Below, one piece after another: positions 16,155-17,259 of a DNA stretch of 41,080 nucleotides. How positions within the stretch are numbered: position 1 is the stretch's first letter; each line of letters begins with the position of its first letter. The translations under genes were made by a program, and so were the position numbers. This DNA is from Desulfobacterium sp. GTDB taxonomy: Bacteria > Desulfobacterota > Desulfobacteria > Desulfobacterales > Desulfobacteraceae. Location: positions 1-41,080 of the forward strand of contig JAEINR010000059.1 of NCBI GenBank assembly GCA_016342325.1, read 5' to 3'. The notes beneath the pieces were generated by a model. It saw nothing but the letters and a program-made list of their open reading frames with translations. It was not told the DNA's origin and made no database searches.

Positions 16155-16311
16155 ACCTATGTAATACCCCTGTGAAGACAAACAGTCAACCGCTAGTGTC
16201 CCATCTTTAACCTATGCGAATGCGTTTGTTTATGATAATTTTGTCCGGCAGATAAATAAGGGTGAAAGAAGAAGGGTGACACCCATTACAACCGCCCAAC
16301 GGAGGGAGACG

Positions 16312-16539
16312 ATGAAAGAGACCGTATTAATTTTCGGCAAAAGCACATGACCCTTTACCAACGCTGCCCGGGGGGCATTTACCAAGGATAAGATCGAGTT
16401 CAAGTATATCGATGTGGTGGTGGAGCCGAACCAGTTAGAGACAATGCTCGGCTATTCAGACGGAAATCGCATGGTGCCGGTAATCGTTGAAAACGGCAAG
16501 GTCACCATCGGGTACGAGGGCAAGGGCTGAAAGGTCTGA
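16312..16539 (+). CDS. Glutaredoxin-like selenoprotein with two in-frame UGA codons (UXX-star type)
   Basis: From ATG 16312, after a strong GGAGGG site, the frame reads MKETVLIFGKST, then UGA (16348-16350), then PFTNAARGAFTKDK...MVPVIVENGKVTIGYEGKG. A second UGA (16528-16530) is followed by Lys-Val and a UGA stop (16537-16539). Read as selenocysteine (U), this is a 75-residue thioredoxin-fold protein with a U-P-F-T motif where glutaredoxins have C-P-x-C. It also has the cis-proline region MVPVIV and a C-terminal U-K-V-stop. That tail fits the family I know as UXX-star (Sec, two residues, stop). The role is presumably thiol or selenol redox chemistry; the partner is unknown. Ordinary gene finders would miss it. 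It heads an operon with the LOG-family gene 51 bases downstream. Confidence 0.85.
16352..16387 (+). promoter_or_regulatory. Candidate bacterial SECIS element for UGA 1
   Basis: Just after the first UGA, TGCCC (16365-16369) pairs with GGGCA (16373-16377) around a GGG loop that begins 20 bases downstream of the UGA. An outer CCTT/AAGG pair could extend it. A G at the start of the apical loop and this distance agree with known bacterial SECIS hairpins. The fold is less perfect than the second one. Confidence 0.6.
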
Positions 16540-16540
16540 T

Positions 16541-16559
16541 TTCCGGCTGTATGCCGGAA
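16541..16559 (+). promoter_or_regulatory. Candidate bacterial SECIS element for UGA 2, beyond the stop codon
   Basis: TTCCGGC (16541-16547) and GCCGGAA (16553-16559) form a perfect 7-bp stem with loop TGTAT. The loop starts 17 bases after the second UGA and has G then U near its 5' side, as in bacterial SECIS loops. It lies wholly after the terminal UGA and lacks a T-tract, so it is not an intrinsic terminator. This supports decoding the penultimate UGA as selenocysteine. Confidence 0.7.
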
Positions 16560-16590: not shown

Positions 16591-17259
16591 TTGAAGCAGA
16601 CAAAAGCGCCAAACGGGGATTTCCCCATAGACGACTTTAAAAGCGGAGAATCATGGCGTCTGTTCAAGATCATGGGAGAATTTGTCGAGGGCATCGATAC
16701 CCTGCACAACATCGGCCCTGCCGTCTCCATCTTTGGATCGGCCCGGACAACCCCTGATCGCCCATGCTATAAAAAAGCGGAACACATTGCAGCCCTGTTT
16801 GCAAAGGCCGGTTACGGTGTAATCACCGGCGGCGGCGGCGGCGTCATGGAGGCGGCCAACAAAGGGGCGGCATCGGTAAACGGCACCTCGGTGGGGCTCA
16901 ACATCAACCTCCCCTTTGAACAAAAGCCCAACCCCTACGCAAACGTCGGGCTGGAGTTCAACTATTTCTTTATCCGCAAGGTGATGTTCATCAAATACGC
17001 CCAGGCCTACATCATCATACCCGGCGGGTTCGGCACCCTGGACGAACTGTTTGAGGCGGTCACCCTGATCCAGACCCACCGGATCAAACCCCTGCCCATT
17101 ATTCTGGTGGGAACCGAATACTGGGGCGGCCTTGTGGACTGGATAAAGGCACGGATGGTCAAGGACAAAATGATATCACCGAAAGACCTGGACATCTTCC
17201 AGGTCCTGGACGATCCCGAAGAGATCGTAAAAGCAGTTGTGGAGTTTAAGAGAGAATGA
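16591..17259 (+). CDS. LOG-family (Lonely Guy) nucleotide 5'-monophosphate phosphoribohydrolase
   Basis: This 222-residue member of the LOG/TIGR00730 family probably cleaves the base from a nucleoside 5'-monophosphate, releasing ribose 5-phosphate. Evidence includes SIFGSARTTPD near residue 48, YGVITGGGGGVMEAANKGA, and the signature IPGGFGTLDELFEAVTLIQ at about 144-160, which contains the PGGxGTxxE active site. Family members act on AMP or, when linked to isoprenylation, on cytokinin nucleotides; the substrate here is unknown. The start is TTG 16591, chosen because AGGAG lies seven bases upstream and no other start fits. It is the second gene of the selenoprotein operon and overlaps the methyltransferase start by 4 bp (ATGA). 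Confidence 0.92.
   Translation: MKQTKAPNGDFPIDDFKSGESWRLFKIMGEFVEGIDTLHNIGPAVSIFGSARTTPDRPCYKKAEHIAALFAKAGYGVITGGGGGVMEAANKGAASVNGTSVGLNINLPFEQKPNPYANVGLEFNYFFIRKVMFIKYAQAYIIIPGGFGTLDELFEAVTLIQTHRIKPLPIILVGTEYWGGLVDWIKARMVKDKMISPKDLDIFQVLDDPEEIVKAVVEFKRE

Follow-up and report, generated by a model that had tools for sequence, protein, structure and literature searches.

A UXX-star family 1 glutaredoxin-fold gene with two putative selenocysteine codons in Desulfobacterium sp.

The gene and its reading frame

The window, by which we mean the whole stretch of 41,080 nucleotides of Desulfobacterium sp. that was analysed, carries on its forward strand a short gene whose frame runs through two in-frame UGA codons and closes at a third. 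The features at and around it are the following:

16301–16306, + strand: ribosome-binding site GGAGGG, five bases ahead of the ATG at 16312 (read from the sequence)
16312–16539, + strand: coding sequence of a UXX-star family 1 selenoprotein, 75 residues plus UGA stop (frame and NF041114)
16348–16350, + strand: UGA codon 13, Sec of the UxxT motif (translation; of 127 loci, 113 have U and 14 have C)
16365–16377, + strand: first SECIS-like hairpin, UGCCC-GGG-GGGCA (fold; synonymous constraint at codons 19 and 20)
16528–16530, + strand: UGA codon 73, Sec of the Sec-x-x-stop tail (translation; U in 127 of 127 loci)
16537–16539, + strand: UGA codon 76, read as stop (translation with UGA as Sec)
16541–16559, + strand: second SECIS-like hairpin, UUCCGGC-UGUAU-GCCGGAA, lying entirely past the stop (fold; covariation in 32 loci)
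16591–17259, + strand: LOG-family (TIGR00730) gene with a TTG start (149.6 bits)

Direct translation of the window with UGA read as Sec gives the product MKETVLIFGKST-U-PFT...GKG-U-KV. A first-pass annotation, made from the letters alone, had claimed a GGAGGG site, a frame holding UGA twice (codons 13 and 73) and ending at a third UGA, and the motifs K-S-T-U-P-F-T and U-K-V-stop; the site lies five bases before the ATG, the frame proved exact on translation and both motifs read as stated. The motif around residue 13 is U13-P-F-T16, which is the UxxT of NF041114, and the C-terminal end, U73-K-V-stop, is the Sec-x-x-stop tail of the same model. Three residues after Sec13 stands Thr16 and not the resolving Cys of a UxxC-type selenoglutaredoxin. 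Rfam at gathering scores gave no match anywhere in the window.

Family, fold and selenocysteine machinery

The NCBIfam profile NF041114, “UXX-star selenoprotein family 1”, matches the protein over the whole model (positions 1–70 of 70) with 98.5 bits against a cut-off of 72 (E 1.9e-28). The models of UXX-star family 2 (NF041211), family 3 (NF047338) and the HUGP/GUXX-star fusion (NF045501) match the same stretch of protein, all of them under cut-off here (69 versus 100, 49 versus 97 and 42.8 versus 325 bits, respectively). The UXX-star assignment first proposed was therefore right and can be narrowed to family 1, the profile of which is the one over its cut-off. Since an NCBI equivalog model exists, the accompanying claim that automatic annotation would call nothing at this place need no longer hold.

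The glutaredoxin fold is indicated by the match to Pfam Glutaredoxin (PF00462, 40.6 bits, cut-off 22.9), by the structural model and by matches in the PDB. AlphaFold, run with four sequences, predicts the order strand-helix-strand-helix-strand-strand with no final helix at a mean pLDDT of 83.6. This is the one good model of five, the others reaching 67.7, 41.5, 37.7 and 36.4, and even in the good model the tail scores lowest (67). Searches of the PDB by sequence and by fold gave mainly glutaredoxins, with one fold match at E < 0.001. cGrx1 and cGrx2 (PDB 7c10, 7c12 and 4tr0), which we take to be proteins of Clostridium oremlandii, are among the best matches by both sequence and fold; in contrast to them, the window protein has Thr16, an extra C-terminal Sec and a model without the last helix.

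The two-Sec family is already named and catalogued; nothing sets the window protein apart from UXX-star family 1, of which it is an ordinary member. The portion of a 2026 review available to us tabulates UXX-star family 1 with a UxxT motif and two Sec, gives U/CxxC/S for Sec glutaredoxins, and credits the two-Sec UXX-star entry to an ocean-sampling paper (PMC13188914). In the portion of that ocean-sampling paper at hand, the Grx-like row is UxxC and a two-Sec form was not found (PMC2398784). Among the 5.39 million papers searched, the family name or the accession NF041114 occurs only in PMC13188914, and a search for diselenide glutaredoxins returned no evident match among the matches listed. 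What the present analysis adds to the searchable literature is the invariance of Sec73 against an exchangeable residue 13, together with the signatures of selection on both hairpins.

The window genome (6.67 Mb in 205 contigs) carries the machinery that two recoded UGA codons would call for. The first-pass annotation had asked for a check of the genome for selA, selB, selC and selD, with absence of selB or selC counting against it, and profile searches found selA (612.1 bits), selB (363.9 bits), selD (375.4 bits, with one in-frame TGA) and tRNA-Sec (75.7 bits), each over its cut-off. As a test selA discriminates little, since it is so common in the phylum, with matches in 355 of 395 genomes. 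Among the 100 genomes of the phylum search that contain a family match, seven have no over-cut-off selA: it is absent or nearly so in G135, G166, G365, G396, G292 and G259, and G248 holds a fragment. G292 and G259 are also without over-cut-off selB and tRNA-Sec, and G396 without over-cut-off tRNA-Sec; assembly gaps are a possible cause of the missing Sec genes in these seven genomes.

Two side observations concern these genomes. G135, G166 and G365 each combine a two-UGA UXX-star gene with selB and tRNA-Sec over cut-off, and searches of the three genomes gave no match to SelA (TIGR00474, PF03841) or to SepSecS (PF05889); G135 is a single contig, 99% complete, with three more over-cut-off tRNA-Sec matches (66.1, 50.7 and 47.8 bits). 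Locus L150 in G292 (100% complete, 240 contigs) has both UGAs while selA, selB and tRNA-Sec are all below cut-off there, and it could be a stray contig, the sign of a bin gap, or something odd.

Conservation of both UGA codons and of their hairpins

Matches to NF041114 over its cut-off were found in 25 of 98 genomes in a search of relatives and in 100 of 395 genomes in a search of the phylum, the window genome being included in both. The counted set holds 127 loci with 124 genome labels and 123 different sequences (those of L051 and L137 read alike), made up of the window, 24 loci from the relatives search, two from a contig scan, whose third locus, L049, is the same as L070, and 100 loci from the search of the phylum. 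Two further loci were not counted: L076, which is below cut-off, of YruB type and with one UGA, and a second copy in G460, though it is over cut-off with both UGAs. The two family 1 copies of G460 lie on contig C16 at 100071–100696 with starts 425 bases apart, and both are of the two-UGA form.

The position of codon 73 is UGA in 127 of 127 loci: a pattern allowing U or C returned U in 124 of 124, and L063, L117 and L158, read by eye, have U as well. Codon 13 is UGA in 113 loci and a Cys codon in the other 14. Homologues with Cys or Sec aligned at both codons, which the first reading had looked to for its check, are thus present throughout the set, and the invariant Sec is the C-terminal one rather than that of the motif. 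The stop follows two residues past Sec73 in 114 loci (UGA in 60, UAA in 34 and UAG in 20 of them) and 3 to 23 residues past it in 13. A tree was built with positions 13 and 73 masked; it has few columns, and 73 of its 120 inner branches are left open. On this tree residue 13 passed between Sec and Cys, in one direction or the other, about 11 times, or at least six times when only well-supported branches are counted, and residue 73 never changed. Shuffling of the residue-13 labels gave a mean of 13.5 changes and only 5 of 500 shuffles as low as observed, so the state of residue 13 is somewhat clustered on the tree.

A Cys form at codon 73 was also sought below the cut-off and was not seen in the matches read. 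Twenty of the at least 46 below-cut-off matches among the matches listed were read: four have the UXX-star tail, all with UGA at that codon, and the remaining 16 resemble glutaredoxins that lack the tail. One of the four, L208 of G207, has Gly at the codon-13 position and retains a UGV tail; perhaps it is decaying. A search of 50,697 phage records at E 1e-5 gave no phage copy, and none of ten pattern matches in one scan of viral contigs was confirmed. At closer range, a congener copy, 83% identical, retains both UGAs and the UGA stop; it differs from the window copy by 13 codons with a residue change and 9 without, so this pair alone indicates only mild constraint.

A SECIS-type hairpin with G in its apical loop lies just 3′ of each UGA. 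The first-pass annotation was right that both hairpins exist and wrong in starting them 17–20 bases after the UGA. The first stem opens 15 bases, and the second 11 bases, into the sequence that follows its UGA; it is the apical loops (GGG at 16370–16372 and UGUAU at 16548–16552) that fall about 18–22 bases past their UGA. In the SECIS of E. coli fdhF, a U follows the loop G, whereas the first loop of the window, GGG, has no U after G. A G at position 23, counted from the U of UGA, occurs in 111 of 113 Sec13 genes, a position largely dictated by the Arg codon, and likewise in E. coli fdhF.

The first hairpin is located within the coding sequence, and synonymous codon choice was therefore used to inspect it. 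The codon for Ala19 is GCC or GCT in 112 of 113 Sec13 genes and in only 8 of 14 Cys13 genes; at other Ala positions of the Sec13 genes the figure is 165 of 334. Similarly, of the 109 Sec13 genes with Arg at position 20 (four of the 113 have another residue), 108 use a codon with G or T at its end, as against 208 of 353 elsewhere and 7 of 11 Cys13 genes with Arg at this place. Fisher values for these choices are overstated because relatives are treated as independent; comparing Sec13 with Cys13 genes is more direct, though based on 14 Cys13 genes. Judged by its codons, the first hairpin has its synonymous choice constrained where residue 13 is Sec, with no visible constraint where it is Cys.

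For the second hairpin, protein coding cannot account for the conservation, as it lies beyond the stop codon. Covariation was scored on its seven-pair stem in 32 loci of the taxonomic order of the window against 500 shuffles. Of the stem cells, 82.9% are paired versus 66.7% in shuffles, the covariation score is 0.460 versus 0.172 shuffled and at most 0.154 when slid, and 38 cells changed on both sides versus 13.4. The number of pairs with change on both sides, one of five covariation measures, is six of seven, a value that 57 of the 500 shuffles also reached, and only 13 of 31 sequences form the outermost pair. Over the full set of 127 loci, the best stem has on average 6.8 pairs versus 4.0 after single-base shuffling, and at least five pairs in 118. 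On these alignments the second hairpin covaries, and, as far as sequence comparison goes, both hairpins behave as bacterial SECIS elements.

The surroundings of the gene vary. The LOG-family gene of the window is probably cotranscribed with the UXX-star gene. Such a gene comes next downstream in 19 of 32 loci from the same order, 18 of them identified by clustering and one (L075) by tblastn, and clustering found none in the other 95 loci; the contig of L059 stops just downstream of the UXX-star gene. A DNA methylase gene (PF01555, 17256–18350, + strand) has its start overlapping the UGA stop of the LOG gene, and methylase-like genes also come after the LOG gene in L070 (92%) and L064 (63%). 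Upstream, divergent ptsI-like and HPr-like genes, named from reading their sequences, occur in 17 and 14 genomes, respectively. Outside the window's order, 11 of 124 genome labels have a gene of the ACR3 cluster no more than three genes from the UXX-star gene (loci L167, L182, L185, L186, L188, L192, L195–L198 and L200). The single representative of that cluster which was tested proved to be an ACR3 arsenite efflux transporter (455.6 bits). Seven of these 11 loci have an insert before a GGTU tail, and five have at least seven residues after the Sec. One universal gene partner is ruled out, with LOG in the window's order and nucleoside-diphosphate kinase, ACR3 and others elsewhere.

Recoding, proposed chemistry and alternatives

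Taken together, the comparisons argue for a genuine two-Sec glutaredoxin-fold gene of UXX-star family 1 in which both UGAs are recoded, a reading to which we give a probability of roughly 0.93. SelB, Sec-tRNA and its own downstream hairpin would recode each UGA, as the comparative evidence supports, and the third UGA would terminate, presumably because the loop of the second hairpin, 9–13 bases away, is too close to serve it.

As for the chemistry, Sec13 would stand at the start of helix 1 in a UxxT motif, which lacks the resolving Cys that CxxC normally supplies, and Sec73, on its Gly-rich tail, would be its partner, the two forming a reversible diselenide, or a selenylsulfide when residue 13 is Cys. 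The tail of mammalian thioredoxin reductase is Gly-Cys-Sec-Gly, and this unrelated protein likewise places a Sec beside the C-terminus on a Gly-containing tail. The favoured action, at slightly less than even odds, is that of an electron carrier resolving its own active site through the Sec73 diselenide or selenylsulfide. Sec73 is fixed while residue 13 is exchangeable, which suggests that Sec73 is the chemically essential residue. The tail presumably sits about where classical glutaredoxins carry the glutathione-binding GG motif, and many such anaerobes make little or no glutathione. Perhaps, and more tentatively, Sec73 is indispensable and the glutathione-binding end has been swapped for a built-in selenol, giving a glutathione-independent diselenide or selenylsulfide carrier.

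The same gene and the same recoding could instead serve soft-metal or metalloid trafficking, with Sec13 and Sec73 as ligands of Hg, Cu or As, a role that we consider rather unlikely. According to the part of the 2026 review at hand, the Sec of the UXX-star family may act as a metal ligand (PMC13188914), and the 11 genome labels with an ACR3-cluster neighbour, with the tail insert in seven of their 11 loci, point the same way. Nonetheless, no metal gene was found beside the window copy, whose tested neighbours are a SpoU-type methylase and the LOG-family gene, and the 113 other genome labels have no ACR3-cluster neighbour within three genes, although some of their contigs end nearby.

That a single UGA is decoded and the other acts as a regulatory stop is very improbable: the two sites are separable in that codon 13 can be Cys, yet each hairpin has its own signature of selection, the two UGAs flank the glutaredoxin domain, and every locus counted has the second of them. 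Decay of a former glutaredoxin, or sequencing error, would yield two premature stops in a short frame, but this reading is refuted by conservation: 113 of 127 loci have both UGAs in place, the congener copy keeps them too, and the second hairpin covaries besides. Reassignment of UGA to a sense codon such as Trp would also keep the frame open and deserves next to no credence, given that 8 of the 23 larger window ORFs examined end in UGA, including the LOG gene, whose UGA stop overlaps the start of the next gene, that codon 13 when not UGA is Cys in 14 of 14 loci, and that tRNA-Sec and selB are in the genome.

On the preferred reading of two recoded UGAs, this is a gene that is easily missed, and its family offers a comparative test of which of two selenocysteines matters. 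Moreover, it packs two Sec codons and a terminating UGA into 64 codons, and so would be a compact system suited to the question of how the ribosome distinguishes a UGA meant for Sec from one meant for termination two codons on.
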